64,000 nt of DNA from Sugiyamaella lignohabitans (Eukaryota > Ascomycota > Dipodascomycetes > Dipodascales > Trichomonascaceae), in the NCBI RefSeq assembly GCF_001640025.1, contig NC_031674.1:3534001-3598000 (forward strand), in the 5' to 3' direction. Below are positions 7,338 through 60,554 of the stretch, one piece after another. The first letter of the stretch is position 1. The number at the start of each line of letters is the position of its first letter. The notes beneath the pieces are model-generated. The model searched no databases. It had not been told where the DNA came from and saw only the letters and a list, made by a program, of their open reading frames with translations. The position numbers and the translations under genes are program-made.

Positions 7338-7587
7338 CTCCTGCGAAGCAGGAGCTACCAGGGTCTGGGGCGGAGCCCCAGCCGCCGGAGGCATGCCCCG
7401 TGCCCGTGTGGTTGGTGGCAGCCCGGGTTTTGTTCTCCTGCGAAGCAGGAGCTACCAGGGTCTGGGGCGGAGCCCCAGCCGCCGGAGGCATGCCCCGTGC
7501 CCGTGTGAGTCGTGGCAGCCCGGGTTTTGTTCTCCTGCGAAGCAGGAGCTACCAGGGTCTGGGGCGGAGCCCCAGCCGCCGGAGGCA
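7338..7587 (-). repeat. Tandem GCP array, type a, 97-bp unit, 3 copies
   Basis: Copies at 7338-7393, 7435-7490 and 7532-7587 are spaced exactly 97 bp. They share the linker GCCCGTGTG...GTGGCAGCCCGG, which drifts in the third unit. The array ends 71 nt past the stop codon of the DUF1989 gene and is in sense with it. Together with 7175-7317, five copies lie within 420 bp. Confidence 0.93.
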
Positions 7588-7658
7588 TGCCCGGACCCGT
7601 GTGGGTCGTGGCCCCGGTCCGGGTTGGTTGTACGGGGAGAGTAGTGGAGGGGGTTTGA

Positions 7659-8708
7659 TTAAGGTTGTTTGGGCACGTATTTTAGGCCGTGGTTGCCAAA
7701 GTAGGGAGCGGGTTGTGGGGGTTCCCAGCCGGCGAGGGTGGTTTGGGGGTCGACCAGTTCGTACACTTCGACGCCCAGGGGTCGACACGAGGATAGAACG
7801 TCTTCATACGAACTGCCCCAGCCCCATTGTGACAGGTCGCCGCCGGGACAGGCTGATAGGGCACACAGGAGATCGATTTCGGCGAAAAACTCGAAATAAT
7901 CGTGTTTGGTGGCCGGCGAGGTCTCCATGAAATACTGGCCGTGGTCGTTGAGTCCTGTCACTTGAAACACATTCAGCACGTCATGCACGTCGAACTCGGT
8001 CAGCCCATGGGGGAGAACGGCCCGAGTAAGATTGGAATGACAATGGTTATCGATAATGTCATTGTTAATAGAGTTAACGTTTATTCCGCCGCCTGCCGAG
8101 CCTGCAGAATCTTCACGGACTGCTATCTCGGACCCTGCGCTGTTGCTCAGTCCTTTTCCTTCGCCTGTTGCTGCATCAGACAGTGGGGGTGCGCCTGCTA
8201 GGGGTGCGCGACCTGGGGGTGGTGGTGGGGGTGCACCTGTCAAAACTGCATCGACATATGGATCACATCTGGTCCCGAGTAGATCGTGCACCCGACCGCC
8301 CCACTTGTCGATGCCGTAGTCTTGCAACGAGTCACCAATGATGGTGACCATGGGCCGCAGGTACGGCAGCGACGACCACAGCCGGTCGTACGTGGAAACA
8401 TGCGAACTGTGCAATTGTCGTGTGCGACTGGCCCAAAACCGTTCGCGAGGGTTATGGGCGTTCCACAGGTTCAGATCTCCTACCTGCGGGCCTTCAGGTG
8501 TGGTCAGCCGACAAATTGAGCCCGCCGGCACCTTCCAGCTCTTGGCAGTTCGAATCTCGATAACAAACTTATTCACGAGCCTCCTCTCAGCACTGGCTAT
8601 CCCGTTATACAGGTTCCGGTCCACATTCAATGGCGTGATTTTATCATTCGCCGGCAAATATGCCGGCACCGGCTCTCTAAGATTATTCGCGGCCTGTCGC
8701 GTGCTCAT
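7659..8708 (-). CDS. DUF1989 (urea carboxylase-associated) family protein
   Basis: A 349-residue intronless frame with an ATG at 8708. The N-terminal third (FVIEIRTAKSWKVPAGSIC...GDLNLWNAHNPRERFW) and the segment LRPMVTIIGDSLQDYG...HDLLGTRCDPY match my memory of DUF1989 proteins. So do DNHCHSNLTRA and the C-terminal LNVFQVTGLN...FFAEIDLLCALSACPGGD. Conserved Cys residues in GTRCDPY, HCHSN and SACPGGD suggest a metal site (inference). Bacterial relatives sit beside urea carboxylase or amide/purine nitrogen genes; the exact reaction is unsettled. Residues ~155-215 form a Pro/Ala/Gly-rich insertion. It is divergent from the LrgA-LrgB gene at 9148. A CTTATC (GATA-type site) at about 9049 lies between them. 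Confidence 0.8.
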   Translation of the reverse strand: MSTRQAANNLREPVPAYLPANDKITPLNVDRNLYNGIASAERRLVNKFVIEIRTAKSWKVPAGSICRLTTPEGPQVGDLNLWNAHNPRERFWASRTRQLHSSHVSTYDRLWSSLPYLRPMVTIIGDSLQDYGIDKWGGRVHDLLGTRCDPYVDAVLTGAPPPPPPGRAPLAGAPPLSDAATGEGKGLSNSAGSEIAVREDSAGSAGGGINVNSINNDIIDNHCHSNLTRAVLPHGLTEFDVHDVLNVFQVTGLNDHGQYFMETSPATKHDYFEFFAEIDLLCALSACPGGDLSQWGWGSSYEDVLSSCRPLGVEVYELVDPQTTLAGWEPPQPAPYFGNHGLKYVPKQP

Positions 8709-8853
8709 CTCTCTCTCTTTCCTCTCTTTCTTTCTATAGTGTCTAAATTTTTCACCCCTGATCTCATCTCCAGCAGCAGCATCCGCTCCATTTGTACTCC
8801 CCTGCAGTCTCGGAGTTCGCTACCCGTCGAGGGAGCTCCGCTGTGGGGAGGCA

Positions 8854-8916
8854 TGCCTCCGGCGGCTGGGGCTGCGCCCCAGACCCCCCGGCTCCTCTCG
8901 CTTCGCTCGAGTCGGG
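8854..8916 (+). repeat. GCP hairpin element, type b, in a divergent promoter
   Basis: Plus-oriented copy with H2 loop TGC instead of TCC. It lies 145 nt upstream of the DUF1989 start, antisense to that gene and sense to the LrgA-LrgB gene. Confidence 0.9.
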
Positions 8917-11394: not shown

Positions 11395-11401
11395 GGGGGT
11401 C

Positions 11402-11534
11402 TGCCTCTGGCGGCTGGGGCTCCGCCCCAGACCCTGGTCGCTCCTGCTTCGCAGGAGATGCGTCGACGGTCCGGCAAACTCCTGCGAAGCAGGAGCAACC
11501 AGGGTCTGGGGCGGAGCCCCAGCCGCCGGAGGCA
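11402..11534. repeat. GCP inverted pair, type a + type a
   Basis: The + copy (11402-11457, TGCCTCTGG variant of H1) begins 7 nt past the LrgA-LrgB stop, in sense. The - copy is at 11479-11534. The spacer is 21 nt, so the pair could fold into a large cruciform. Confidence 0.92.
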
Positions 11535-12158: not shown

Positions 12159-12357
12159 TGCCTCCGGCGGCTGGGGCGCTGCCCCAGACCCCGTGGCTCC
12201 TCTCGCTGCGCTCGAGTCGGGCTTGTGGGGTCCCTGCTGCTGCTTCTCCTGTGGGACATGTCCCGGACTCCCAGTGCTGCCCACGACCCCCAAACCCGAC
12301 TCGAGCGAAGCGAGAGGAGCCACGGCGTCTGGGGCAGAGCCCCAGCCGCCGGAGGCA
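12159..12357. repeat. GCP inverted pair, type b + type b
   Basis: The + copy is at 12159-12221 and the - copy at 12297-12357, with a 75-nt spacer. The H2 loops differ (GGGGC-GC-TGCCCC and GGGGC-TCT-GCCCC read in sense), while the stems stay paired. Confidence 0.9.
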
Positions 12358-12872: not shown

Positions 12873-12876
12873 CTGC

Positions 12877-12930
<54 letters not shown>

Positions 12931-16089: not shown

Positions 16090-16145
16090 TGCCTCCGGCG
16101 GCTGGGGCTCCGCCCCAGACCCTGGTGGCTCCTGCTTCGCAGGAG
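16090..16145 (+). repeat. GCP type a, sense, 75 nt past the SAT4-type kinase stop
   Basis: Intact H1, H2 and type-a H3. Confidence 0.92.
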
Positions 16146-16424
16146 TTACGTTGTGGGAAGGGGACGAAGTGACGACGAACTGATGACGCATGACCAAGTT
16201 CCAGAACGAAGTAACTACAAAGCTAAAGAATGTCATAACAATATCGGAGTGACGAGTTGACAGTGGCATGACAGAATGAAGTGATAGCGACAGACAGAAC
16301 AACGAACTTCACATGACAGACAAAACGATGACACTACAACTAACAGATTGAAGCAAAGAAAAATGGCAGTCAGAGCGACGAAGTTGCTTGTGGTTGACAC
16401 GAGCTACAGATATCTTCGACTGCC

Positions 16425-16486
16425 CGACTCGAGCGAAGCGAGAGGAGCAACCAGGGTCTGGGGCGGAGCCCCAGCCGCCGGAGGCA
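16425..16486 (-). repeat. GCP type b, sense, 74 nt past the PKA gene stop
   Basis: Intact H1, H2 and type-b arm on the minus strand. Confidence 0.92.
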
Positions 16487-20010: not shown

Positions 20011-20125
20011 TAAATCCACAGCCGGACCGGTACACCGCTCACCGGCACCGGTCTCCGTCTCCCCAGACTCGACTCCGACCCATATCCCTCCCTCTCTGGC
20101 ATCCTGTCAACCCTAGGGTCCATAT

Positions 20126-20181
20126 CTCCTGCGAAGCAGGAGCAACCAGGGTCTGGGGCGGAGCCCCAGCCGCCGGAGGCA
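20126..20181 (-). repeat. GCP type a, sense, 38 nt past the PEX16 stop
   Basis: Intact minus-oriented copy. Confidence 0.92.
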
Positions 20182-21770: not shown

Positions 21771-21910
21771 TGCCTCCGGCGGCTGGGGCTCCGCCCCAGA
21801 CCCTGGTTGCTCCTGCTTCGCAGGAGATGGTGGGGAACCGTCGACGAAACGACTCGAGCGAAGCGAGAGGAGCCGCGGGGTCTGGGGCGCAGCCCCAGCC
21901 GCCGGAGGCA
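21771..21910. repeat. GCP inverted pair, type a + type b
   Basis: The + copy is at 21771-21826 and the - copy at 21850-21910, with a 23-nt spacer. The second copy's H2 loop is TGC in sense. Confidence 0.92.
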
Positions 21911-22162
21911 CACCCCCTCCCCAGGATTATAACTAGTTTGGCCCTGTAGGGACCAGGTGGGTGATCATGGAACCCCAGTTTCGAGTCGTGTGGGTCTATG
22001 GTGAAGCAGTGGAGAGTGGAGCCTTGGTTGAGAGTTGACGCAGGGTCCGTGCATATGCGGTTGATCGTATGCAGGTAGGGTGAGACGTGTTTCGGCGCGT
22101 GGGTGCTCGTGTGCGCGTACACAACTGGGATTCTGTGATGGGTATTGAGATGGGGAGATGGA

Positions 22163-22170
22163 TATAAAAA
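22163..22170 (+). promoter_or_regulatory. TATA-type element upstream of surface protein 1
   Basis: TATAAAAA, 273 nt upstream of the ATG, followed by a pyrimidine-rich stretch (TCTTTTTTTCTCTTTTTG) typical of yeast initiation regions. Confidence 0.5.
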
Positions 22171-22435
22171 GGGCAGTTGGGTCTGTCTTGTTCTGTCTTT
22201 TTTTCTCTTTTTGTTTCGTGGTTTTTACAACAGACTGGTGGTAGTGAAATTTGATATCCAGCAGCTGAAGTTCATGGTCGTAAGTGATATTGATAGTGTG
22301 AATTTGGAGTAAGTAGGTTGTGGTTAATTTATTAGTTTCGTTTTTGGTTTGTATGAGTGGGATGTTGTTGCATGTGTTTTGTTTGGGTAGTGTATATTTA
22401 CTGACAGCTTATGAACAGGAAGGGTGTAAATTGAA

Positions 22436-23587
22436 ATGAATAATTTTCATATATCGTCAACGCTGGTTTCAGCTCTTATGCTGCTGGCTCCATTTGTTTC
22501 TGCTCAGTCGGTGTCAGAATCTATTTCCACTACTTCTATTTTTCTTCCTAACCTCGGTTCCATCTCTGCTGTTGGCTCGATTCTCTCGACCGCTGGTAGT
22601 GATACTTTATTGGTGGTCACTTGTGCTCCATCTTCTGTGGGAGCTCCGCCCTGTCCTCTTTTAGGACCCCTTCTTGTGACTTATGGTCCCACTACTGTGG
22701 CTTATACCACGGATGTTCCTGTTAGTCCTGGAGCCACTCAAAGCGCCAACTTCTTTGAACGATGTTCTTTCACTAGTCCTGTTGAAAGTGCCACTTGTAC
22801 TGCCAACCCTGCTCCATTTACAGAAGTTCTTACCTCAATTATTTCTTCTAATGCTATCAGTTTCTTCCCTGTCACTTTCGTAGACGATATTACGTTCACA
22901 TTGCCAACTGAGACTCCCACTAGTAGCGCTGAGGCTCCAACAAGTACTTCTGAGGTTCCCGTCAGTGGTGTGGAGGAAAGGTCAAGTGCTTTGTCTAGCG
23001 AAGCTTCTTCTTCTTCTTCTTCTTCTTCTTCAAATGTTGTTGAGACATCAACTATTAGCTCTAGCGAAGCTCCTTCTACATCTAGCGAATCAACCTCTGA
23101 GATTTCAAGCCAAAAACCCTCATCATCGGCCGTTTCCAGTGCAAGCGAAGCTCACTCGTCTCGAGGTAGCTCTACCACACATGCTACTACCTCATTTATC
23201 CCCTCTGTTTCGTCTACAACATCCACCATTTCGACCCTCACCTTTCCAAGTGGCTTTGATCCCGAAATTGTATCCGAGGTTTCTGTTATTGTATCCGAGT
23301 CTGTCTCTGACTCAGTATCTTCTTCAGTTTTCATATCTGTTTCTGAGTCTGTATCAAGCTCCGTCTCTGATACAATTTCATCCTCAGTCTCCACTCTTGT
23401 GTCGGTATCTGTTTCTGAAAAAGTCGCTTGCTCAGTGTCCGCCTCTGTCTCTGCTTCCGTTTCTGCTTCAGTATCTTCATCTATAAAGCATCATGGATTT
23501 TCTGCAGCTTCATCCCACTTGGCCCCTAGTTTATACTTGGTGGGTTCAATTGTTCTAGCAGTCATGCCTTTTATTTCTCTATTTTAA
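22436..23587 (+). CDS. GPI-anchored Ser/Thr-rich cell-surface protein, paralog 1
   Basis: 383 residues. The signal peptide is ~1-24 (LVSALMLLAPFVSA). Residues ~25-165 form a conserved domain shared with the genes at 24163 and 31246: TSIFLPNLGSISAVGS, DTLLVVTCAP, GPLLVTYGPTTVAYTT, FFERCSFTSPVESATC and FFPVTFVDDITF. It has four conserved cysteines, probably two disulfides (inference). A Ser/Thr/Glu-rich stalk (~165-280) precedes an ~85-residue block of SVSx repeats with one Cys (EKVACSVSASVSASVSASV). The C-terminus is hydrophobic (LYLVGSIVLAVMPFISLF) after a small-residue region, as for GPI addition. I do not recognise the N-terminal domain. An adhesin or wall-mannoprotein role is inference. 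Confidence 0.85.
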   Translation: MNNFHISSTLVSALMLLAPFVSAQSVSESISTTSIFLPNLGSISAVGSILSTAGSDTLLVVTCAPSSVGAPPCPLLGPLLVTYGPTTVAYTTDVPVSPGATQSANFFERCSFTSPVESATCTANPAPFTEVLTSIISSNAISFFPVTFVDDITFTLPTETPTSSAEAPTSTSEVPVSGVEERSSALSSEASSSSSSSSSNVVETSTISSSEAPSTSSESTSEISSQKPSSSAVSSASEAHSSRGSSTTHATTSFIPSVSSTTSTISTLTFPSGFDPEIVSEVSVIVSESVSDSVSSSVFISVSESVSSSVSDTISSSVSTLVSVSVSEKVACSVSASVSASVSASVSSSIKHHGFSAASSHLAPSLYLVGSIVLAVMPFISLF

Positions 23588-24162
23588 TCTCTTGTTAACT
23601 GTGACAGCATCACTGATATGCTTTCACTTTAAAGCTATGATCTTTATTCTCATATTACGGGTATCTCTGGTAATATTTCTGCATCGTTAATTCTTCTACA
23701 ATTCTTCTATAATTCTACTCAATCCTTTTATAATACTTAATTAATATTTCTGGGAAGTTGATTAGTCGTAGTGTCAAATTATTCAACTGAATAATAGAAG
23801 CGCTCTATGTTCTTTTGATATTAGTTGACAGCAAAAAAATTTTTTAATACTTTTGTTTATAGCTTATTTCTTTATTTTTGTTTTTTGTACAGGGAAAATT
23901 TCATGCATTTTTGGTGTTTGTAGATTTAAAGTTGCATTGCATTGTGTATGTTGTTGTTTGTAGACTGTAAGTTGCATTGCATGTACTTTGTAACATTTTA
24001 GATGCAGGGACCAAGCTTTTTCACGGCCGATCTCTACATATCTCTAGCGTGTCTCACATCTCACATCATGACTTGTATAAATACCCTTTATATCATCCAT
24101 GAATCGCGGTTTTTTAATACTACTTCTCAATTGTTACGACAGGTACCTCCCATTCAAGCGAA
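23588..24162. other. Intergenic region between surface proteins 1 and 2
   Basis: AT-rich. A short imperfect direct repeat (TTTGTAGA...AAGTTGCATTGCAT) occurs at about 23920 and 23956. A TATA element lies at 24076. Confidence 0.5.
24076..24083 (+). promoter_or_regulatory. TATA-type element upstream of surface protein 2
   Basis: TATAAATA, 87 nt upstream of the ATG at 24163. Confidence 0.5.
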
Positions 24163-27048
24163 ATGTTGTCGTTATTTACTCTGTCAGTGGCTCTGTCACT
24201 TTTTACTGAGCTCGTATCTTCACAATCTACTTCTCAGTTTGTTTCCACTACTTCAATTTTCCTTCCCAATATCGGATCTCTCTCTGCTGTTGGTTCAATT
24301 TTATCCACTACTGGAAGTGACACTCTCTTAGTTGTTACATGTGCTCCATCATCTGTCGGGGCTCCTCCATGTATTCTCCTCGGTCCTCTTCTTGTTACAT
24401 ATGGCGCCACCACTGTTGCTTATACAACCGAGGTTCCTATAAGCCCCGGTGCTACTGACAGTGCTGAGTTCTTCCAACGATGTTCTTTCACTAGTCCAGT
24501 TGAGAGTGCCCTTTGTACTAATAACCCGACTCCATTCACTGAGACATTGACTCAGACTGTCAGCTCAAAAGAGATTGTTTTCTTCGATGTCACTTTTGTT
24601 AGCGATATCACGTTTACCGTACCATCCACAAGAAGTCAAGTACCAACTTCTTCGGTGATTTCTCCTTCAGTTACGGGTGTTATCTCTACAGCAGAGTCAA
24701 GTCCCACTGCCGAATCTACTGACATTAGTTCCACAGAACCAAGTCTGTCATCTACTTTTTTATCTGAGACAAGCTCAGCTGTATCTGTTTCGCAAACGAA
24801 TTCTGCTGTCTCTTCCAGTGAATCGGAATCATCTTCGAGCTTGTTTTCTTCTTCTGAGACAGCTTTTTCGTCCCCCTTTTCTGCTTCGGAGACGAGCGCA
24901 GAATTATCTTCTAGCAAATTGTCTTCTTCATCTATAAGAGAAATAACCTCGGCTTCCTCTGTTTCCTCCTTAGAGACGAGTAGCGAGGTCTCTTCAAGTG
25001 AAGTAGCGTCTGCTTTGATTTCGTCTGAGATTAGTTCTGAGACCCCTGCCAGTGAACCCGTTAGCTCTGCATCCACCTTTAGCACAACGGTACCGCCTCT
25101 GTCAAGCGCAGAGACTACCTCCGAATTCTTCTCTAGCGAATCATCCTCGACATCTAGATCTGAATTTGAGACAACTCCATCTTCTTCCTCGTCTATTTCT
25201 TCTAACGAACTTGCTGCGACATCCTCATTGTCATCCTCAGCGACCGGCACTCCAATCTCTAGAGCAGGAAGTGCCAGTGAGGTTAGTTCCATAGTAGCTA
25301 GTTCAACTGAACTATCCTCTACTGTGCCCATCACCGAGTCTTCTACGGAGTCTCTTATAGGACCAATCACAGAGTCAGTCATAAGTTCCACCGCTGAGTC
25401 CACCACTGAATCCTTCACAGAGCCTACCTCACCTGTATCTGGTACAAGTGGCGTCAGTTTTAGTAGCACCTTGGCTGAACAAAGCTCTGGTCCCCCAAGT
25501 TCTGAACATACCAGTTCTGTTGCTTCTGCTTTCGCTCAAACTGAAGTTACCGTCACTTCTACCACCTCTATTCCTTCTCAGATTCATGCTTCTACGTCAT
25601 CGTCTTTTTTCATCGGCTCCAGTAGTACACCTTCGGAAACACTATCCCAAGTTAGCACCTTCAGTTCGTCTCCTAGTCTATCCTCAAACGCAAGCCCCGG
25701 AATAGTAAGCTCTAGAAGACCAGTTAGCACTTTGCCCGAGTCAAGTTCAGTATCAAATCCTGGGGGATCTTCTTTAACTACTACCGAGTCAAGTGTTACC
25801 ACTACGGAATCCACTTCTTCAGAAACTTCGGAATCTAGCTTTTTAAGCTCCACTGAAGCGACATCATCGGAAGTCAGTACTACAGAGTCTAGTCTTGCAA
25901 GCTCTACGGAAGCTATTTTATCACTAGTCAGCTCTACTGAGTCTAGTCTTGCAAGTTCTTCGGAGGTTAGTTTAACTTCTACCGAAAACAACATCTTCGA
26001 AACTACTACTTCAGAAACTGCTTCTTCAGAGTCCAGCGTCATCTCCTCATCTGGAACTGGTACTGCGCAAGTGACGTTTACGGTTGCTAGTAGTTCTGCT
26101 GAGTCAAGTATCAGTATCAGTTCTGTAGTTTCCAGTACCATTGAAACGACCTCTGTCGAGCCCATATCCAGCGCAACCACTGCAACCCAATCTAATTCTT
26201 TGGAAACCAGCTCCATAGAAGAAACAAGCTCAACAGTCTCCTCTGAAATCAGCTCTTCAACTATGAGCTCTATCGATATCAGTTCCAGTGACGTAATCAC
26301 TTTTCTTTCTTCTAGTTCTGCTCAAACTAGCTCAATTGTACCGTCATCTGAATTTACGAGTTCGTTAGCAGGTACTAGTGAGAGTATTGTATCACAGTTC
26401 AGCTCTGTAACTCCAAGCACTCAAACAGCAGAAACCTCTCAAGAATCCGTCTCAACTGGAATCACGTCTGCCCTACCAAGTTCTCTTTCTATTTTCAGTG
26501 AACTTGCCTCTAGTTCCATTGAATCCAGCACCGCATCCAGTTCAACAACTTCACCTAGACAAGTTACAGAGATCACCTCCACCGAGCAGCATTCAAGTGT
26601 TGGCTCTATTCAAAGCACTTCCGAGACACTTTTAACGCTATCTTCTTCTCACATCCCCACCACTTTCTTTACCTCCACACCAAAATCAACATCAGCTATG
26701 TCGTTAACGTTTCCAACTGGCTCTAATCCTACACTTGTATCCGAAGTATCATCGCTTGTATCCAAATCAGTATCTCGCTCGGTATTCTCTGCTGTCTTTT
26801 TTGCTGTTTCTGTGTCGGTATCATCTTCCGTGTCGTCTACTGTTGTCCCATCGGTATCATCTGATGTCTCCGTATCTGTATCAGATGACGTTTCTTGCTC
26901 AGTATCTGCTTCTGTCTCTGCATCAGTATCTGCCTCAGTCTCTTCGTCCTTGAAACACAAATCAGCGGCCAGTCGTGTCCATTCTCATCATTCTCATTCA
27001 GCTATTGCTGTAATTACGGCATTGTTGGGAGCGTTTTTTTTATTTTGA
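24163..27048 (+). CDS. GPI-anchored Ser/Thr-rich cell-surface protein, paralog 2
   Basis: 961 residues. The signal peptide is ~1-20, then the same four-Cys domain as paralog 1 (TSIFLPNIGSLSAVGS, VVTCAP, GAPPC, QRCSFTSPVESALC, FFDVTFVSDITF). About 650 residues of Ser/Thr/Glu-rich stalk follow, with loose repeats such as TESSLASSTEA. Near the C-terminus is the SVSx block, with the CSVSASVSASVSASVSSSLKH segment almost identical to paralog 1. The end is a His/Ser stretch and a hydrophobic tail (AIAVITALLGAFFLF), consistent with GPI anchoring. Paralogs 1 and 2 are clearly the closest pair, so a tandem duplication followed by stalk length change is likely. Ser/Thr density implies heavy O-mannosylation. 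Confidence 0.85.
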   Translation: MLSLFTLSVALSLFTELVSSQSTSQFVSTTSIFLPNIGSLSAVGSILSTTGSDTLLVVTCAPSSVGAPPCILLGPLLVTYGATTVAYTTEVPISPGATDSAEFFQRCSFTSPVESALCTNNPTPFTETLTQTVSSKEIVFFDVTFVSDITFTVPSTRSQVPTSSVISPSVTGVISTAESSPTAESTDISSTEPSLSSTFLSETSSAVSVSQTNSAVSSSESESSSSLFSSSETAFSSPFSASETSAELSSSKLSSSSIREITSASSVSSLETSSEVSSSEVASALISSEISSETPASEPVSSASTFSTTVPPLSSAETTSEFFSSESSSTSRSEFETTPSSSSSISSNELAATSSLSSSATGTPISRAGSASEVSSIVASSTELSSTVPITESSTESLIGPITESVISSTAESTTESFTEPTSPVSGTSGVSFSSTLAEQSSGPPSSEHTSSVASAFAQTEVTVTSTTSIPSQIHASTSSSFFIGSSSTPSETLSQVSTFSSSPSLSSNASPGIVSSRRPVSTLPESSSVSNPGGSSLTTTESSVTTTESTSSETSESSFLSSTEATSSEVSTTESSLASSTEAILSLVSSTESSLASSSEVSLTSTENNIFETTTSETASSESSVISSSGTGTAQVTFTVASSSAESSISISSVVSSTIETTSVEPISSATTATQSNSLETSSIEETSSTVSSEISSSTMSSIDISSSDVITFLSSSSAQTSSIVPSSEFTSSLAGTSESIVSQFSSVTPSTQTAETSQESVSTGITSALPSSLSIFSELASSSIESSTASSSTTSPRQVTEITSTEQHSSVGSIQSTSETLLTLSSSHIPTTFFTSTPKSTSAMSLTFPTGSNPTLVSEVSSLVSKSVSRSVFSAVFFAVSVSVSSSVSSTVVPSVSSDVSVSVSDDVSCSVSASVSASVSASVSSSLKHKSAASRVHSHHSHSAIAVITALLGAFFLF

Positions 27049-27421
27049 TTCTGTTCTCTGCCCTTGTCACTGTTGATTTTATTTCATATTTTTATGTATG
27101 GTTGAATGTCGAAGGGATAATTTAACGACTGTTCGAGTCTATTAATTCTTAGTTAAATTGGTGGTATACTCTGATTCTACTTATGGGTATTTAGTGTTGA
27201 AAAATATATGTTATATGTTACCAGATGGGCATTTCCAGGGGTAAAGTGGGGTGCAGCCGTGCATATTTCGTATCCGAATACGAGATTACGACGATTGCCT
27301 CAATCATCTCCAGAAAACTAGCATTCTAGCATTAATCTTCTGTCACTTTATTTTGTGTTTCGATTGACTTCGGCTTTTTTTGGTCCAGATATTTCTCAAA
27401 TTATTCTCTTTTGTATTTATA
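27049..27421. other. Intergenic region before the DUF3074 gene
   Basis: AT-rich spacer of about 370 bp containing the 3' region of surface protein 2 and the promoter of the next gene. Nothing else is seen. Confidence 0.5.
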
Positions 27422-28117
27422 ATGACATTTTCATTTGAGCTTCGAGAGTTTTCCGAGGCGGAGCTCCCAAATTCCACTGTGGCAGTTCAGACGGCGTTGA
27501 ACTTCATGAGCCAAGTAAAGTCGGCATGGACCAAAGGTAAATTTTACTCTGATGGACAAGTTCAAACTTATCACCATACAGCCAGTAACGGGGATTTCTG
27601 GATGGCGCGTGAATCAAACCACAAAGATGTATCTTTTGAGGAGTTCCGATCAGCTATCCTCCTGAATCACACTGAGAACGAAGTCAAATACATTCCTTTA
27701 CTAGACAGCTTCAAAAGACTAGAACCAGTAACTTCACCAGAAACTCCTGATGCTCATGACTGGGAGTCACTTCTTGTTCACTATAAATTCCCAAAGTTCT
27801 TCAGTGATCGTGAGATGACTGTGTGGTTATTGGCAATCCAGCCTAACGAGGATGTTAAAGAATTCCTAGTGATCTCTCTACCGTCGAACAGACCAGTCAC
27901 TGATTCAGAACACGTCACACAAGCATACTATTGTTCCATCGAGCATGTCAAATATAACGAACAAGAGCAACAGGTTGAGTGGCTCATGGCACAAACAAGT
28001 GACGCCAAAGGCAACATTCCACGATGGATCCAAAATAAATCAGTAACCTCGAGTGTGGTAGAAGATGTTCCACATTTTATCTCGTGGGCAAAGAAACAAC
28101 GTGAAGTTTCGAAATAG
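27422..28117 (+). CDS. DUF3074 / START-like domain protein
   Basis: 231 residues from the ATG at 27422; the frame extends upstream only without an ATG. The order is FYSDGQVQTYHHTASNGDFWMARESNHKDVSFEEFRSAI, then YIPLLDSF, DWESLLVHYKFPKFFSDREMTVWLLAIQ, the EFLVISLPSNRPV strand, YYCSIEHVKYNE and IPRWIQNKSV...DVPHFISWAK. This fits the fungal DUF3074 family, which adopts a START/Bet v1-like lipid-binding fold; the ligand is unknown. It has no signal peptide or membrane segment, so it is probably cytosolic. It converges with COG8, with 149 bp between stops. Confidence 0.75.
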   Translation: MTFSFELREFSEAELPNSTVAVQTALNFMSQVKSAWTKGKFYSDGQVQTYHHTASNGDFWMARESNHKDVSFEEFRSAILLNHTENEVKYIPLLDSFKRLEPVTSPETPDAHDWESLLVHYKFPKFFSDREMTVWLLAIQPNEDVKEFLVISLPSNRPVTDSEHVTQAYYCSIEHVKYNEQEQQVEWLMAQTSDAKGNIPRWIQNKSVTSSVVEDVPHFISWAKKQREVSK

Positions 28118-28266
28118 ATCTTGCGCACTCTTTCTTTACGAAAGATAAAGATGACATGATAACAAGTATATACAACACAAGCTAATAGATATATAAATAG
28201 ATAGAGGACTTGATAGATGCTTCTAGTAATGCTGTGTAGAGACTATGCGTAGAATGTAATGGTGGG

Positions 28267-29559
28267 CTAAGCAACACGACCGATGCGAGAAGCAATATCT
28301 CGAGAAATGGACCGTTGTTTCTTAATAGCTTCGATCCATTCGACATTGGGTATTGGTGGATTTGGTTTCCCTTGCACAAGTGGCCAGAATTCACCACCTA
28401 CACGTCCAAGTGACTGAGAACAATATGCCAGTTGCAGCCAAAGACTAGCACGAGTAGCTTTATCGGTAACTAATGGTCCAACGCTTTTAATAGCAGCCTC
28501 AAGTTCTGCTACTGTAGTGCGAAGGAATTCTCCTAAAAGTCGCGAGGTTGTAGATGTTGATTTTGATGCGATGCTGGAACTGGCTGGACCACCAGTCACA
28601 GTCGACTGGTGCGAAGTAGAATCTCCAGATTGTGAAAGGTCGTTTTGAGGGAAAATGGTTCGAAATCCCCCTACTGTCGCAAATACATGCTCTCGGTACA
28701 CCTCAATATACCGTTTCAGGTACTTGTCTGGAGACTGCTTTAGAGGTGACAGAGTTTCCCACTGGTTTCTAATAAAGTGAAGTCGCGATGAAATATATAA
28801 ATGATGCAATTGTCTGTTAGCCTCTGCGGTCGGTAAAGACTGTATTGGCTGCATTCGTCGTAAATACGATATGATTTTGACAAGAGTCGGCAATTTCGCT
28901 GTCTCTCGTAACAGTTTAAGAAGTTGCAAGAGCATGACTTTCATAATCTGTTCTGTTTCTTCCTGTACTTTTTGAATGATTTTTATGTTGTTGAATCTGA
29001 TACCCAATCTTCGAGCATGACTGGCAAGATCTAGAGCCTCGGAATAGAACCCATTTCGCACGCATGTGAGAGTGAGCGAAGGTAACTCGAGAATATCCTG
29101 GATTTTTTCCAAATTCCTTAAAAGCAGTACATCATCCGAAGAATTGGCACCTACAGATGAATTGGAATTACCAGGTGAATTGATATTCGTATTGGATGAA
29201 GTGTCGTCACCTCCCCCAACTAGATGTGAGAGGTCATGTTGAACTGGCAGTTTTTCCTCCGCCTGCTCAAGCTTTTCTTGAAACTCATCAAATGCAAGAG
29301 TCAAATCTCGTACTGCTCTAGATCCCGAGATAAATTGAGATTGAGATGTTTTCGTAAGGGAAATTAAAGTTGTTTTTATCGACTCTGACGAGATGACCAG
29401 GTGTTCCCGCTCGGCTCCTATAGAGGTCTGATTAAGACCCCGAATATGCTTGATGTAGTCATGGAGGTCTTGTCGAGAGAGTATGTCATCACTCCCTTGA
29501 ATGCTTTTGGATAGGATATCTAGCAATGGGTCAGAATCGCTCATATTAGATGTAAGCAT
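28267..29559 (-). CDS. COG8: Conserved oligomeric Golgi complex subunit 8
   Basis: 430 residues from the ATG at 29559; the frame runs further upstream but has no ATG there, and a second ATG lies at 29544. It shows Dor1/Cog8 features: an N-terminal coiled-coil-like stretch (AVRDLTLAFDEFQEKLEQAEEKL), LEKIQDILELPSLTLTCVRNGFYSEALDLASHARRL and SYLRRMQPI. The segment LHHLYISSRLHFIRNQWETL...DKYLKRYIEVYREHVFATVGGFRTIFP follows. Cog8 belongs to the tethering complex for retrograde intra-Golgi traffic. The protein is shorter than many Cog8 proteins and ends soon after the core. Asn/Ser-rich linkers are at ~120-145 and ~310-335. Confidence 0.85.
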   Translation of the reverse strand: MLTSNMSDSDPLLDILSKSIQGSDDILSRQDLHDYIKHIRGLNQTSIGAEREHLVISSESIKTTLISLTKTSQSQFISGSRAVRDLTLAFDEFQEKLEQAEEKLPVQHDLSHLVGGGDDTSSNTNINSPGNSNSSVGANSSDDVLLLRNLEKIQDILELPSLTLTCVRNGFYSEALDLASHARRLGIRFNNIKIIQKVQEETEQIMKVMLLQLLKLLRETAKLPTLVKIISYLRRMQPIQSLPTAEANRQLHHLYISSRLHFIRNQWETLSPLKQSPDKYLKRYIEVYREHVFATVGGFRTIFPQNDLSQSGDSTSHQSTVTGGPASSSIASKSTSTTSRLLGEFLRTTVAELEAAIKSVGPLVTDKATRASLWLQLAYCSQSLGRVGGEFWPLVQGKPNPPIPNVEWIEAIKKQRSISRDIASRIGRVA

Positions 29560-39290: not shown

Positions 39291-39485
39291 TGCCTCCGGC
39301 GGCTGGGGCTGCGCCCCAGACCCCCCGGCTCCTCTCGCTGCGCTCGAGTCGTTGCGAGGGGATCTCCTGGTCGAGTTGTCGGGTCTTCTGAAGCTTACTT
39401 CGCGGCCTGGAAACCCCGACGCAACGACTCGAGCGCAGCGAGAGGAGCCGGGGGGTCTGGGGCACAGCCCCAGCCGCCGGAGGCA
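39291..39485. repeat. GCP inverted pair between convergent VMA6 and UBP genes, type b + type b
   Basis: The + copy (39291-39351) is 38 nt past the VMA6 stop. The - copy (39425-39485) is 63 nt past the UBP stop. Each is in sense with its own gene. The H2 loops are TGC and TGT. Confidence 0.93.
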
Positions 39486-43139: not shown

Positions 43140-43200
43140 GGCCTCCGGCGGCTGGGGCTCCGCCCCAGACCCCGCTGCTCCTCTCGCTGCGCTCGAGTCG
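43140..43200 (+). repeat. GCP hairpin element, type b
   Basis: Intact + copy. No gene stop is nearby. Confidence 0.9.
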
Positions 43201-43555
43201 TTGCGTGGGGATCCCGTCCGAGCGGGGGTTTTGGGCCGCGCATGGAGGGAGAAAAGTGTATATGACCATAGAGTGAGAGAAACCGGCGTGCTGCATGCGG
43301 TCAGGACTTCATGATACAGCAGAAGCAGCAGCAGCTCGACCATGAACAGAAACGAGTAGAAAGTAAATAAATAAGCAATAGTAAAGCGGGTAATATAGCA
43401 GAATAATAGAACAACATAGCAGCAGAGCAGCAGGACAATAAAGCAAGCAGCTGCTCGTATATCACCCCGCACGGCCAGAGCTGCACCACCACCTCCAACC
43501 CTCGCACCCCTGCAACACCGTACCCCTCCCTCTTCCCCACCACGGTCCTAGCCAT

Positions 43556-43610
43556 CTCCTGCGAAGCAGGAGCAGCGGGGTCTGGGGCGGAGCCCCAGCC
43601 GCCGGAGGCA
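43556..43610 (-). repeat. GCP type a, sense, 57 nt past the small-gene stop
   Basis: Intact minus-oriented copy downstream of the small membrane-protein gene. Confidence 0.9.
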
Positions 43611-45063: not shown

Positions 45064-45201
45064 GTGCCTCCGGCGGCTGGGGCTCCGCCCCAGACCCCGT
45101 TGCTCCTGCTTCGCAGGAGGCCAGAGGGAGCCCACACGTAACGACTCGAGCGCAGCGAGAGGAGCCGTGGGGTCTGGGGCGAAGCCCCAGCCGCCGGAGG
45201 C
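45064..45201. repeat. GCP inverted pair, type a + type b
   Basis: The + copy is at 45064-45119 and the - copy at 45142-45201, with a 22-nt spacer. Confidence 0.92.
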
Positions 45202-45629
45202 CGGCCCTGACCGTCGCGCTGGCCCCGCCGCCCCATCATGGGTGCATGTGGCTGCAGGGCGAAAAAGAAAGCGTGGACAAAACAGGTTAAATATAGAAAC
45301 CGTGCGGTTTAGACTAATTTAACTGATCGGCCTAACCGCATTTCGTGCGTGCCAAGGAGAGGGTTTGTTGACATGTTTTGGACGGCGGGGACTAATTACG
45401 AGACATTTGGGTCCAGCTCCGGTCGGTGACTGGAGGGGCCCCACCGGTTCAGTGATCTCGCTTGTATCACATCGGCTGCCACACGAGACAGCGGGGCACG
45501 CTTGGGCCAGGCACTGGCCACGGGTCAGGGGCCGGTCTGTCAGGGTATTGATTCAGCCGTCAGTCACACCATGCATGTCGTCATTACTGCTGCCAAGATT
45601 AGCGACCAGGATTCAGGGGGAGAGGGGTG

Positions 45630-45768
45630 TGCCTCCGGCGGCTGGGGCTCTGCCCCAGACCCCGTGGCTCCTGCTTCGCAGGAGATGACGGGGGGTTCCC
45701 CCGAGGACGACTCGAGCGCAGCGAGAGGAGCTACGGGGTCTGGGGCAGAGCCCCAGCCGCCGGAGGCA
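45630..45768. repeat. GCP inverted pair, type a + type b
   Basis: The + copy is at 45630-45684 and the - copy at 45708-45768, with a 23-nt spacer. Both H2 hairpins have the TCT loop, so the two arms share a variant. Confidence 0.92.
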
Positions 45769-49646: not shown

Positions 49647-49697
49647 TGCCTCCGGCGGCCGGGCTCTGCCCGGACCCGTTGTGCTCGCTTCGCGAGC
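49647..49697 (+). repeat. GCP type c, sense, 131 nt past the SKT5 stop
   Basis: H2 is the CCGGGC-TCT-GCCCGG form and H3 is GCTCGC-TTC-GCGAGC. Confidence 0.9.
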
Positions 49698-49753
49698 TTC
49701 TTACGGCGACCGACCTCTTCTGCCTTCAATGAACGGACATAGCACAGAACCGG

Positions 49754-50146
49754 CATGTCATGTCAGTGAACGAGTATGTCATGTCAACGGACATGTCATG
49801 TCAATGAACGGACATGTCATGTCAGTGAATGGGCATGTCATGTTAGTGAACGGGCATATCGTGTCAGTGAACGGACATATCATGTTAGTGAACGGACATG
49901 TCATGTTAGTGATCAGACATATCATGTCAGTGAACGGACATATCATGACAATGAACGAGCATGTCATGTCAGTGAACGAGTATGTCATGTCAGTGAACGG
50001 ACATATCATGTTAGTGAACGGACATATCATGTCAGTGAACGAGCATGTCATGTCAATGAACGGACATATCATGTCAGTGAACGAGTATGTCATGTCAGTG
50101 AACGGACATATCATGTCAATGAACGAGCATGTCATGTCAGTGAACT
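49754..50146 (+). repeat. 21-bp minisatellite, about 18 copies
   Basis: The consensus is CATGTCAGTGAACGGACATRT, with CAGTG/TAGTG/CAATG and CGGAC/CGAGC/CGAGT variants. One unit near the left end is 17 bp. Since 21 is divisible by 3, several frames stay open and give heptapeptide repeats, but there is no conserved start or domain. It is bounded on both sides by type-c GCP copies in the same orientation. Confidence 0.93.
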
Positions 50147-50190
50147 GGCGGCCGGGCTCTGCCCGGACCCGTTGTCCTCGCTTCGCGAGC
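50147..50190 (+). repeat. GCP type c lacking its first arm
   Basis: Starts directly at GGCGGCCGGGCTCTGCCCGG, abutting the minisatellite. The TGCCTCC end is absent. Confidence 0.88.
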
Positions 50191-50840
50191 GCCCTTATTT
50201 TAAACCGATCTCCCTTCGGTTAGGAGACCCAGTCGACACTAGTATCACCAATATTCTTTAATGTGTTATTTACTGTCGTATTTAGATATATAAATCCTGT
50301 GATACTATTACAATATATACGTGGTTCTAAAACTGGGTCAGACGGCTGTTGTTTAGTCATCTATCGTTTTGTAGAGAGGGGGGCGTATACCAGTGAGTCT
50401 GTTATAATTTAATGATTGTTGTCAATTTCATCAGTGATTCATTAGTTCGCTGTTGATTGATTAATTTATGTTCATTGTTGTCTTATATAGATACATGATA
50501 ATCACTGGTGCAATTTAATTGTCATTTTAATCAGGAAATTCATCTTGCTACTGAATCAAACGAAGTATCCCGAGAACTCTCATTCATGGAAACTGGTAAA
50601 CTTTTTAGCAACAAACTTTATATTGTAATAACTTCAGGTATATGTATGGTATTTAGATAGTGAACTTCTAGTTGAAAGAAGTATTACAGCACATATCATT
50701 ATTGCACACAGTTACTCACGTTTATCTGAGACATTCTAAAAATACAATAACGGAAAATACTAAATCTCACACGCTCTACCTATTACCCCATCTACAGAAT
50801 CACAGAACAAACAAACCCACCCCCGTAGCACATCTGGACC

Positions 50841-53958: not shown

Positions 53959-54012
53959 TGCCTCCGGCGGCTGGGGCGCTGCCCCAGACCCCGTTGTGCT
54001 CGCTTCGCGAGC
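53959..54012 (+). repeat. GCP with type-c arm, sense, 37 nt past the GH17 gene stop
   Basis: Mixed form: TGGGGC...GCCCCA H2 with the GCTCGC-TTC-GCGAGC third hairpin. Confidence 0.9.
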
Positions 54013-54114
54013 CTCGGCCGCCCAAACAACCCCTTCTCTCATGACCGTTACGCGATACCTGTATTTTTATTTATCTAATCTTTCTTACCAGACCACTTTC
54101 ACGGGCCAAGGCCC

Positions 54115-54227: not shown

Positions 54228-54413
54228 TGCCTCCGGCGACTGGGGCTCCACGCGGGTCGTTAAGTCCTCCATCCCCGGTATCTCCCGCGAAGCAGGAGCA
54301 ACGGGGTCTGGGGAGAAGCCCCAACCGCTGGAGGCATAACCCCCCCCTGAAAGCCAACTCCTGCGAAGCAGGAGCCACCAGGGTCTGGGGCGGAGCCCCA
54401 GCCGCCGGAGGCA
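54228..54413. repeat. Cluster of one truncated and two inverted GCP elements
   Basis: 54228-54250 is a + copy broken after TGGGGCTCC. 54282-54336 is a decayed - type-a copy. 54358-54413 is an intact - type-a copy. The words CCCCGGTATCTCC recur at about 54189 and 54273. Confidence 0.85.
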
Positions 54414-56822: not shown

Positions 56823-58393
56823 ACACCCCTGCCACACGGCACTCATCCTCATACTAGCACTGCTATACTAATACTAATATTATTCCAGTTCTCACTTACC
56901 TTCGGGGGTCATGCCTCCGGCGGCTGGGGCTCCGCCCCAGACCCCGTTGCTCCTGCTTCGCAGGAGATACCGGGCATCGAGGACGTAACGACTCGAGCGG
57001 AGCGAGAGGAGCCATGGGGTCTGGGGCGGAGCCCCAGCCGCCGGAGGCGTGGCCCACCGAAGACAGGAACCCCCGGAGGAAACAACTCGAGCGCACCGAA
57101 AGGGGCCACGCGGTCTGGGTTAGAGACCCAGCCGCCGGAGGCAGAGGAGTGAAAGATTTAAGATCTTCGCGACCAGTCGGCCCTGCATATTTGTCTGTGA
57201 TGCATTGCATATGCACCAGAGTTTAAGATTAGTTACAGTCGCAGTATTAATCCCTAGCGTGGGCGATCTGGTGCGGCTAAACTCTATTTCGCGTGATATG
57301 ACGGTTTGGGCGGAGAGTTATATAAGCAGGCTGATGTCATGGTTTCGAGTCGGTTTTTATGAACTCGGAGAAGTGATGAGTAATTTCTGAGTCAAGTTGG
57401 TGGTATGAGGAAAATTGGCTTTTTTATTACCGGTTATAAGTGGGGTTTTGTTGGTTTCGAGGTGTGCATGTCGATTGGTTGATGGAATGTCCGATATCTA
57501 ACGTTTTATCCCTCAGTCAAGCAGCTGTCAGCCCCACTATAGGCAGATATGCTAGCAGCTGGTAGTCCCGCATGCGCGGATGGTTGAGATTTGCATGCAG
57601 CAATGGTTGCTTTTTCCCACGCCAATCATGGTCCATTATTGGCCATTTTCTGTTTGGCGCTAACCGATGCAGGTATCAGTTACAAGCAGGAGAACAACCA
57701 AGACAAGCAGGTGAGGTGCGCTGGTTTCTGGCTACTCTGTTGAGCTGATATACAAAGGTCAATTTATGTTACAAGGTCGCAATTGTTGATTTTTAAAATG
57801 ACTTGTTTTATTTATTTATATATTAGCGTTTTTGTTTTGTAGTTTACTCCTAGAGTTTATCTCGTATTATTAGTGTAAGTGTAATTTATTTTTTTACCCG
57901 TCAAAATTACGTAAAACTCATTTCCACCATATAAGCTCTTTCCGTCAATCTTGTGCTGAAAGCTCTGGCTGTCCGCAATAATCTCCTTTTACGAGGTTTA
58001 ACTGGAGAGGACTGTGTAGGATGAGTAGGACTGATAGAACCACTGTAGAATCAGAGTAAGACCATTCCTAGTATCGTACTAGACAGAACAGATTGTGTAA
58101 TGAATCCTCGCTCAGATGGCACCTGCAGAAACCAGTATAATTTGGTATACAAGTATAAATATATATCTACATATTAGAGAGGTTACAAAGGTAATAGCTA
58201 GCAATAGCAATAGCGATACCTAGACCAAGAGACATAACGGGAAAACGTGAAACAAGAAGTAAAAATCAAGGACAAAAACAAAGACAAAAACAAATAAATA
58301 GGACATAGATGAAAAAAGTAATAAAAAAAAGTGGTAGAACCAAAAAAAAACCAACCAACCAAAAAAATGTTTTCGTTATTCAACGTTAATTAA
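56823..58393. other. Gene-free interval between ZRC1 and the AT-hook-like gene
   Basis: Three GCP copies at the left end, then AT-rich sequence. It includes short palindromic words such as GCATGCGC near 57570. No coding or RNA gene was recognised. Confidence 0.5.
56912..57143. repeat. GCP cluster downstream of ZRC1
   Basis: A + type-a copy (56912-56966, 89 nt past the ZRC1 stop, sense), a - type-b copy (56989-57048) and a decayed - type-b copy (57083-57143). In the last, H2 changed to TGGGT...ACCCA on both sides, keeping the stem. Confidence 0.9.
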
Positions 58394-58978
58394 TTAATGC
58401 TGGGAGAGCCCTTCACCTCCACTACTAGTTCCACTACTGATACTAGGAGGAGGAATCACAGGTCTTTTTCTCCAACCAGTTGGACGACCAGGACCTCTTT
58501 TCACTACATGGCCCGAACTATCTGCAGACGGCGTTGTTCGAGAAGCCCTAGCAATCGCAGCAGCAGACTTGACCAACGCTTTTCGACTTGTTTCCAGTTC
58601 TTTCCATCTTAATCGTAATGGTTCTAACAGATCCAGTACCTTGTTAGCAGTTTCCCGCCATTCGTCGTCTTGGTCTAGATTATAGGTGTAGAGTTGGTCT
58701 ATGTAGACATAAGCAGATGCAGTCTGTATATCAAGAGGATCTTTCGAAGTTGCAATTAATTCAGATTTCCTAGTTTCTTCAGAAAAAAAACCACTCTTAG
58801 CTGATATTGGACTGTTTGAGCCAGGAGACGAGGTAGCTGATGATATGGCGGATGTAGGCGAGGATGATGACGATGAACTCGATGACGACGATGTCGCCGA
58901 CAGCGACGCCGGTTGTGTATGGAGCGAATCCTTGTGATATCTTAGCACAACATGTTTAGAAGGTCTTTGGTCAGCCAT
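58394..58978 (-). CDS. Uncharacterised protein with an AT-hook-like motif
   Basis: 194 residues, ATG at 58978, no intron seen. The N-terminus is basic (MADQRPSKHVVLRYHKDSL), then a polyserine stretch. The middle (~80-140) looks folded and helical: DIQTASAYVYIDQLYTYNLDQDDEWRETANKVLDLLEPLRLRWKEL. The C-terminus has KRGPGRPTGWRKRP, which resembles an AT-hook (RGRP core) or a basic nuclear localisation signal. I do not recognise a family. A nuclear, chromatin-associated role is inference from the motif. Composition and codon use look like a real gene. No GCP element follows its stop, unlike most genes outside the surface-protein block. Confidence 0.65.
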   Translation of the reverse strand: MADQRPSKHVVLRYHKDSLHTQPASLSATSSSSSSSSSSSPTSAISSATSSPGSNSPISAKSGFFSEETRKSELIATSKDPLDIQTASAYVYIDQLYTYNLDQDDEWRETANKVLDLLEPLRLRWKELETSRKALVKSAAAIARASRTTPSADSSGHVVKRGPGRPTGWRKRPVIPPPSISSGTSSGGEGLSQH

Positions 58979-60393
58979 TTTGTAAATAAGTGAATGATTA
59001 GAATAAATTAATTAGAGTTGTTAGGTTGAAAATATGGTTATTTTCGACACGGGAGGTTTTTTTGGGGGAATTGTTGGTAGTGGGTACTGTTGTTGCTGTA
59101 CAATTATTAACAGTGGCTCGATTAGCGAAAAAAATGGGTCAATAATAATGTTCGAATAAAATCAATCCAAAGGTCGAGCAAAAAAAAATAATATTAATCA
59201 AATTTGAACAGGATAGATTAATATGAAGACAAAAAAAGCCACAAGTTGAAGATGACAATAAGAAACAAAAAATATACAAAACAAGCTGAGTTTGTGAATA
59301 CTGTTTCACTTTCTGTTTAGTACAGATTTTCAGTCAGCGTTTTCTCGCCTTACTGTATGGATATGCAGAACAATATGCAGCCCTAGTATAAAAAAAGAGT
59401 TCTGCTTAGACGTTGGATCTGTAAAAACGAGCAGGGAGATAGATAACTTAAGAACAAATCAACACAAAGAAATTCCACAAATAAAATATCTCTAAATACC
59501 CAAGAAAATTGTATATAATTTATTTTAATAATTATTTTCTGGAATATCCGAGCTTCCTTTTATTTTTGGCCTTATTTTTTGTTGTCTATATTTTATATGT
59601 GTCTGTGGCAGGTGTAACTACTACCACCAGACCAGCAATCTTAGTTAATCGTATGTTGACCTAACCATAGCCGGATCCCACCAGGTGAGTGTGGTTTGCT
59701 GCCACCAGTCCCGGTGTGCCCCTCAGCAGTCGCGCCTTTTTCTCCCTGGCCACTTCTCTTGTTACAAACTACCACATATTATGTATGTATATCATCTGTG
59801 GGGGGATGGATTTCTTTTCCAGCGGGATAGGATTTGAGTGATGAGGGCAAGGGTCCGGCTTGCAAAAAGAACAGACTATAATAGCAGTAGCAGCAGTACT
59901 AAAAAGGGACTGGCGGGAGCGCTGACGTTGATAATATAGACTAATTAGAAATAATAAATCTAAATAATTCTTGCCACTGCCCACTGGCTCTGTGTCCATA
60001 ATTCGCAAAAATAATTAAAAATAAAATAAATATATAGTATCGCTACAGCACCTGAGCGGCACACAATACCGGATGGAGCACTGATATTGCGGGACTTTGC
60101 ATAGTTGCCATCGTAGACAGAACTCTAAGTTGCACCCGTGTCTAATTAATATTAGGTTGGCACCTGGTTCGAGAAAGAAAATTAAATATACATTTAAATT
60201 GAACCGGCCCCCCTCCGAAACACGAAACGTGCCTGTCTACCCCTTCGAATCGCCCGGCGATAACTCCGGAGCTCCCTCTAACCCGGGACGTGGTTCACGA
60301 CACCCATTACTTATTCAAGGGACAAGGGTCACATAAGTATACCGTAATAAGCTAGCCGGCGTGGGGCATTCAGGGGGGAGGGGGAGGGGGACA
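58979..60393. other. Gene-free interval
   Basis: AT-rich promoter side of the AT-hook-like gene, then mixed sequence. No gene, RNA or repeat family was recognised before the GCP pair at 60394. Confidence 0.5.
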
Positions 60394-60554
60394 TGCCTAC
60401 TGCGACTGGGGCTGCGCCCCAGACCCCGCGGCTCCTCTCGCTGCGCTCGAGTCGGGTTTGGGGGTACCAGTGTCGCTATACGGTCCTAGCAAACGACTCG
60501 AGCGAAGCGAGAGGAGCCACGGGGTCTGGGGCAGAGCCCCAGCCGCCGGAGGCA
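60394..60554. repeat. GCP inverted pair, type b + type b
   Basis: The + copy (60394-60455) has a mutated H1 (TGCCTACTGCGACTGG). The - copy (60494-60554) is intact, 16 nt past the DCG1-like stop and in sense with it. Confidence 0.92.

Follow-up and report, generated by a model that had tools for sequence, protein, structure and literature searches.

Miniature inverted-repeat transposable elements (MITEs) have inverted terminal arms, are about 140-200 bp long, and occur as many near-identical copies, mostly in intergenic DNA. In Pseudomonas, Stenotrophomonas and E. coli, the elements termed REPINs, REP doublets or BIMEs are described, in the accessible text of two reports, as high-copy, short, extragenic palindromes that are largely organized as inverted doublets with a spacer, and that also occur as singles and clusters (PMC3116915, PMC2817692). 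The accessible part of the first report gives the inverted organization for 93% of 430 REP doublets in Pseudomonas (PMC3116915). GC clusters and double-hairpin elements of fungal mitochondria are GC-rich, palindromic and dispersed, and are considered mobile, according to the accessible part of a further report (PMC4478555). Here, we describe a hairpin repeat in the nuclear genome of the yeast Sugiyamaella lignohabitans. We analyzed a stretch of 64,000 nucleotides (the window; contig NC_031674.1, positions 3,534,001 to 3,598,000), in which a first-pass annotation made from the letters alone had noticed twelve copies of a three-hairpin array (H1-H2-H3) just past stop codons, all reading in sense with the upstream gene. 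We found that the repeat is built as an inverted doublet whose two arms, the copies, have TGCCTCC outermost. With a probability of roughly 0.6, each copy belongs as an arm to a short composite element that is dispersed through the genome and is usually a polarized inverted doublet of about 140 bp with a preference for gene 3' flanks, and the sense rule is mainly a matter of geometry.

The genome comprises 15.93 Mb in four contigs (5.93, 4.95, 2.77 and 2.28 Mb). The accessible part of its published description gives 16.0 Mb, 4 chromosomes, about 50% coding sequence and introns in 5% of genes (PMC5499181). TGCCTCC was present 56 times in the window, compared to 9.0 expected. Over the whole genome, the core pattern with up to two mismatches gave 3401 + 3470 matches and the reversed control gave 0 + 0, corresponding to about 6,900 arms in 15.9 Mb of nuclear DNA. 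Detailed counts were made in a sample of 319,986 bp, made up of the window, twenty 10 kb stretches (17 of them in contig 1 and one each in contigs 2, 3 and 4), and 30 short loci of contig 1 that were picked because the core matched there on the plus strand. A profile check added four arms and removed one, which brought the sample to 247 arms; the gene calls numbered 110, of which 109 were made by a codon model and one (DCG1) by hand. Nearly all copies in the sample were intergenic, with 5 of 244 lying within called open reading frames. Copy density ranged from 0 to 18 copies across the 10 kb stretches and averaged 0.86 copies per kb in the window.

The arrangement of neighboring copies was strongly asymmetric. 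Among genome-wide pairs with an exact H1 and the same spacer range (5-35 nt), 1271 were convergent, 71 were divergent and 63 + 65 were tandem. The sample contained 130 clusters, including 49 arranged as '><', four as '<>', and 53 single arms. There were 60 doublets with a gap of less than 120 nt: 45 combined a short and a long H3, ten were long-long, three were short-short and two were unclear. The usual unit is about 140 bp (range 135-204) and consists of arm S (H1-H2-short H3), a spacer, and an inverted arm L (H1-H2-long H3); 35 of the 45 short-long units measured 135-147 bp. Long-long units spanned 161-231 bp, and larger clusters were found in addition to single arms. The short-long order is a polarity mark that is independent of the palindrome. 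A GACCGTCGACG-like motif was present in the spacer of 17 of the 60 doublets. H1 was preceded by a run of G (43-66% G at positions -13 to -3, compared to a background of 23%), and these runs were mirrored at both doublet ends, with a G-rich left flank in 47 and a C-rich right flank in 41 of the 60.

Pairing in H2 was kept through a second stem type, CCGGGC/GCCCGG, in eight cases. Of the 242 arms examined, those with a long H3 had a TNC loop there in 113 of 116 cases, those with a short H3 in 58 of 59, and those of the GCTCGC type in 16 of 17; for H2, 159 of the 214 loops scored were TNC. On the other strand, TNC loops are GNA triloops, which are unusually stable in DNA. Folding yielded no general rule in favor of the idea that the working strand might therefore be the opposite of the mRNA: by RNA folding, the opposite strand was the more stable one for 81 of 116 long arms but for just 18 of 59 short arms, and by DNA folding for 70 of 116 and 17 of 59, respectively. 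Comparison of the window with the Rfam covariance models gave no matches at the gathering score.

The motif map and independent gene calls confirmed that the twelve stop-proximal copies exist and that all twelve are in sense with the upstream gene. Eleven of the twelve reported distances to the stop codon (71, 7, 75, 74, 38, 38, 63, 131, 37, 89 and 16 nt) were matched exactly. The twelfth, 57 nt from a small membrane protein, fits the minus-strand copy at 43549-43610, which follows a 79-codon open frame without an ATG. This frame, for which the gene caller itself made no call, is presumably the last exon of that gene. Likewise, the six genes reported to be free of copies (three surface proteins, DUF3074, COG8 and AT-hook-like) had none listed within 500 nt of the stop. 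What fails is the estimate that such agreement would arise by chance about once in 4000, because the twelve gene ends share ten intergenic regions and the orientation of nine of the twelve copies is set by partner arms. The SAT4- and PKA-type kinase genes share one arrangement and VMA6 and UBP13 share another, the doublet at 39291..39485 being one unit that had been entered twice. The nine copies are outer arms of TGCCTCC-outward doublets (11402, 39291/39485, 56912 and 60554), of the clusters after DUF1989 and GH17, or of a wide pair (16090/16486). Independent information on orientation comes only from three singles (20181, 43610 and 49647), and one of these (43610) is itself faced by an arm (43140) at a distance of 347 nt. 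The 12-of-12 rule is mainly doublet geometry plus a preference for 3' flanks.

The sense orientation at stop codons extended beyond the window. In the sample, the cluster nearest to a stop (within 150 nt) was in sense in 34 of 39 cases outside the window and in 45 of 50 overall; the window contributed 11 of 11, and the regions of exactly 10 kb gave 22 of 25. Upstream of start codons (nearest cluster within 1000 nt), TGCCTCC pointed toward the gene in 33 of 41 cases, that is, in antisense, and in 18 of 24 cases in the 10 kb regions alone. The common rule is that TGCCTCC faces the gene, at whichever end. Because both outer ends of a unit are TGCCTCC, a gene end beside it sees an arm reading away, which is 'sense' at a stop and antisense at a start. 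The proposal that orientation is tied to the mRNA or to the direction of transcription is not supported, given the antisense arms at starts and a doublet polarity that had no detected transcription bias. At stops, the short arm was toward the gene in 10 doublets and the long arm in 6, and at starts the corresponding numbers were 6 and 5.

Copies were concentrated in gene 3' flanks. In gaps of 60-3000 nt, there were 3.24 copies per kb between convergent genes (29 copies), 1.14 between tandem genes (53) and 0.94 between divergent genes (19). In occupied tandem gaps, the cluster was closer to the stop in 17 of 20 cases, and for clusters within 1000 nt the median distance was 56 nt to a stop compared to 308 nt to an ATG. 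The preference for 3' flanks is real; these counts do not assign its cause, and keeping clear of promoters would produce an equal 3' pattern. Of the view that the hairpins belong to gene 3' ends, the part that stands is the position in the 3' flank, near the stop, and the part that is not supported is the sense orientation as an effect of transcription.

A scan of 84,980 bacterial and archaeal species with a degenerate core (Y/R at four positions) identified 43 loci, 41 of them titled Desulfovibrio, Solidesulfovibrio, Bilophila or Desulfovibrionaceae and two from a single Clostridia bin. The yeast-type T/A closing pair was present in three of the 43. The Desulfovibrionaceae core is GCCTCCGGCGGC-hairpin-GACCC, as in the yeast arms. 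The pattern GCCTCCGGCGGC-N11-21-GACCC had 88 + 93 = 181 matches in Solidesulfovibrio aerotolerans (the genome of locus L060), with 0 in the control, and 14 + 15 and 2 + 6 matches in two further genomes of that phylum. The other 392 of 395 sampled genomes of the phylum had at most two matches each, many of them non-hairpin and coding-like. The phylum to which the Clostridia bin belongs gave matches in 11 of 398 genomes; without the bin itself, this is close to the level of the control. Where bacteria had many copies, H1 and GACCC were constant while the stem varied. With a pattern that allowed 81-141 nt between the H1s, inverted doublets with H1 outermost were found in S. aerotolerans at 18 plus-strand places, 16 of which were also matched on the minus strand. 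They measured 144-164 bp, and the control gave 0; a narrower pattern of 40-70 nt matched none. All 16 doublets printed from both strands had one CAAAG-type and one CGGG-type stem and are thus polarized. Just ahead of GCCTCC, the bacterial copies often had a short stretch rich in T (upstream flanks of loci L051-L093), where the yeast copies had the G-run.

The bacterial copies have a sense rule of their own. With up to three mismatches, the 43 loci contained 54 copies, several per genome and not all independent, of which 14 inside called genes were left out. Using the codon-model caller, the gene on the H1 side was in sense in 28 of 29 cases within 100 nt and in 31 of 35 within 200 nt; on the far side, 4 of 13 genes within 200 nt showed their 3' end. 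A cruder gene caller gave 24 of 27 in sense within 200 nt and placed 20 of the 54 copies inside genes. Three of the 29 copies had a convergent partner within 320 nt and four lacked room to tell. Doublet geometry fails to explain the bacterial rule because 21 of the 22 copies without a partner were in sense. Single bacterial copies obey a sense rule that the yeast doublets only mimic.

The core, the order of parts, the outer H1 and the polarized doublet recur in the yeast and the bacterium. It is unlikely that 17 fixed bases would occur in equal order around a hairpin by chance, but any figure for this is weakened by the GC-rich composition and by how many repeat families were searched. The likeness could stem from shared descent or from convergence. 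We entertain, as a tentative idea with the odds somewhat against it, that one family of hairpin elements spans bacteria and the yeast nucleus, having either crossed between domains as a compact self-folding unit or had its 17-base frame and doublet plan selected twice.

The yeast units could also be bidirectional 3'-end elements, in which a flanking transcript would enter the first arm and the hairpins would help to end, cleave or stabilize the mRNA, with the mirror design serving both convergent genes. Such a role would fit the threefold enrichment in convergent gaps, the median of 56 nt to the stop, the lean of isolated arms toward sense at stops (13 of 17), and the bacterial look-alikes, which were in sense in 28 of 29 cases within 100 nt of a stop and in 21 of 22 without a partner within 320 nt. 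However, divergent gaps, which have no 3' ends, nearly matched tandem gaps (0.94 vs 1.14 per kb), doublet polarity was unbiased, many genes were without copies and some 10 kb stretches were empty; overall, we think this role unlikely. Less probable still is insertion coupled to the direction of transcription, for example through R-loops at non-template G-runs, fixing the orientation at each stop. The G-run before H1 and the 45 of 50 sense arms at stops are what it predicts, but it does not predict the antisense arms nearest to starts (33 of 41) or the lack of bias in doublet polarity, and the mirroring of the G-run at the far doublet end makes it look like the end of an element and not like a directional target. 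That the 12 of 12 was a small-sample accident around an ordinary repeat gains something from the dependence among the twelve cases, with two shared arrangements and nine orientations set by partners. Chance as the only cause is refuted by the 34 of 39 sense clusters outside the window and by the genome-wide geometry of 1271 vs 71, and we give it next to no weight.

If the copies are arms of a composite element, as we favor, then the doublet would be the unit that multiplies, probably through a hairpin or cruciform intermediate and an enzyme, and single arms would mostly be halves of doublets. Units would persist just past stop codons since promoters and coding sequence would not tolerate them; alternatively, insertion may favor 3' flanks. 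Mobility is suggested by analogy with REPINs, as presented in the accessible text on them (PMC3116915). The copies were near-identical: with five arms close to the ends of sampled regions left out, the non-loop core was free of mismatches in 91 of 120 arms from doublets, in 31 of 48 single arms and in 51 of the 74 remaining ones. Some single arms (4 of 53) still carried the spacer motif.

Several observations weigh against the composite element or limit its reach. The sample is mostly from contig 1, which limits generality. With 16 doublets at stops, a moderate polarity bias could escape detection. Isolated arms leaned sense at stops (13 of 17, p 0.05); at starts 14 of 20 faced the gene, the same geometry in weaker form, and some isolated arms may be halves of wide or broken pairs. 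Singles were not significantly more diverged, with 0.92 mismatches compared to 0.56 for doublet arms (p 0.076), which leaves the step from doublets to single remnants a proposal, and no more than 32 of 120 arms in doublets and 4 of 53 single arms were adjoined by the spacer motif. There was no target-site duplication of at least 4 bp at the TGCC end in any of 60 doublets; when the end was allowed to shift, there were 22 repeats of 4 bp compared to 15.8 expected (sd 2.6) and 11 of 5 bp compared to 6.3 (sd 1.9), a mild excess that flank composition may cause. The Y1_Tnp profile (PF01797, the RAYT transposase family) had no matches in the genome and matched 5 of 14 control genomes. The Helitron_like_N profile had no match in the genome, and its control was silent too, making this result uninformative. 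There were no exact matches to the degenerate core in viral contigs, and none at E 0.01 in plasmids and phages with a 57-base query. Literature searches with the motif letters and related terms gave no description of the element among the matches listed, as judged by title and start of abstract, with subscription papers mostly outside their coverage.

The stop-proximal copies and the other units of the window are listed in Table 1.

Table 1. Arms and doublets of the hairpin repeat in the 64,000-nucleotide window (positions from the first letter of the window).
Feature	Position	Strand	Basis
Arm H1-H2-H3, outer arm of five-copy cluster, 71 nt past DUF1989 stop	7526..7587	-	motif map, gene calls
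Inverted doublet, short-short, 7 nt past LrgB-type gene; sense arm 11402-11463 +	11402..11534	.	motif map, gene calls
Arm 75 nt past SAT4-type kinase stop; faces 16425-16486 over ~270 nt (wide convergent pair)	16090..16151	+	
Arm 74 nt past PKA-type kinase stop; second half of wide pair	16425..16486	-	
Single arm, 38 nt past PEX16 stop	20120..20181	-	
Inverted doublet, 195 bp, long-long, between convergent VMA6 (38 nt) and UBP13-like (63 nt)	39291..39485	.	
Single arm, 57 nt past presumed last exon of small membrane protein; facing arm 43140-43201	43549..43610	-	
Single arm, short CCGGGC stem variant, 131 nt past SKT5-like stop	49647..49708	+	
Arm 37 nt past GH17-like stop; outer arm of five-copy cluster	53959..54020	+	
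Polarized doublet, 138 bp, short then long, 89 nt past ZRC1-like stop; sense arm 56912-56973 +	56912..57049	+	
Inverted doublet, 161 bp, long-long; minus arm 60493-60554, 16 nt past DCG1-like stop	60394..60554	.	
Polarized doublet, short-long, 147 bp	3161..3307	+	
Polarized doublet, 147 bp; spacer nearly as in 4929-5074, inverted	3810..3956	-	
Polarized doublet, 146 bp	4929..5074	+	
Polarized doublet, 140 bp, within cluster after DUF1989	7254..7393	-	
Inverted doublet, 199 bp, long-long	12159..12357	.	
Polarized doublet, 140 bp, ACCGTCGACG in spacer	21771..21910	+	
Polarized doublet, 138 bp	45065..45202	+	
Polarized doublet, 139 bp	45630..45768	+	
Damaged doublet, 109 bp, left arm shortened	54228..54336	.	
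Single arm, apparently in intron of permease gene (GTAAGT just upstream), in sense with gene	62642..62703	+	

The near-identical spacers in opposite orientation at 3810-3956 and 4929-5074 suggest copying or inversion of a whole doublet. On contig 1, two doublets of 156 bp (842528-842681 and 843515-843668) lie 1 kb apart, inverted to each other and with nearly the same spacer, and may be a recent local duplication. Three tandem copies of the shorter CCGGGC-stem subtype occupy 5544-5725 in steps of 87-88 bp, the third being damaged. The permease gene extends from about 62249 to past 63999; its first open frame breaks at the GTAAGT before the arm, and coding resumes downstream. About 20 nt past the arm that follows SKT5, there is a tandem repeat of MSVNGHVM-like units (49729-50223) that is open in two frames. 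No copies were present in 17 kb (22000-39000) with three large serine-rich surface-protein genes. Among the 10 kb stretches, those at 280 and 760 kb of contig 1 and at 40 kb of contig 2 were empty, that at 680 kb of contig 1 had one degenerate copy, added by the profile check, and the densest (840 and 1320 kb of contig 1) had 17-18; GC content was highest in the dense ones.

Pfam supported eight of ten window proteins tested (DUF1989, LrgB, two kinases, Pex16, the vATPase AC39 subunit, a UCH peptidase and an Asp/Glu racemase). The SKT5-like protein has Sel1 repeats, and the GH17-like protein had no Pfam match at E 0.001. The closest organism-named relative of the window Pex16 is from Trichomonascus vanleenenianus (41% identity).

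We regard the element as a composite hairpin repeat, REPIN/MITE-like in kind, that resides in a yeast nuclear genome and falls outside the full definition of either family. Like REPINs, it is high-copy, short, extragenic and palindromic (3401 + 3470 matches; 5 of 244 copies in open reading frames), and the inverted doublet is the dominant close arrangement (1271 vs 71 and 128). Unlike REPINs, it populates a eukaryotic nuclear genome with some 6,900 arms, three hairpin-like segments make up each arm, the doublet is polarized by having two distinguishable arms, and the arms lack a GT(A/G)G head, starting instead with TGCCTCC after a G-run without a fixed tetranucleotide; the yeast genome also had no match to the RAYT (Y1) transposase profile (PF01797). 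With MITEs it shares a unit of about 140-200 bp, terminal inverted arms (60 doublets), and near-identical copies mostly between genes. It differs from them in that none of 60 doublets had a target-site duplication of at least 4 bp at the TGCC end and in that the arms are themselves chains of hairpins; the parent candidates checked were Y1_Tnp and Helitron_like_N only. Like mitochondrial GC clusters, it is GC-rich, palindromic and dispersed, but unlike those in the accessible part of their description (PMC4478555), its copies are interspersed with nuclear genes on contigs of 2.3-5.9 Mb. An inverted hairpin doublet of REPIN-like design can thus fill a eukaryotic nuclear genome, and the mirror symmetry of a repeat can mimic an orientation rule linked to transcription. 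Claims of 'sense' repeats in 3' flanks need a start-codon control and a polarity mark that is independent of the palindrome.

The Desulfovibrionaceae repeat has GCCTCCGGCGGC, a GC hairpin and GACCC in the same order as the yeast arms, an overlapping set of H2 loops (TCC, TCT, GCT, TTC and GTT), and, in S. aerotolerans, polarized inverted doublets with H1 outermost that measure about 150 bp, compared to about 140 bp in yeast. It differs in that convergent partners were rare (3 of 54 copies in the 43 loci with an exact core), copies followed stops in sense orientation (28 of 29 within 100 nt), the stems were more variable, and H3 and the spacer were different. The likeness in core and doublet plan poses a testable question, that of an element shared between domains versus a common constraint.

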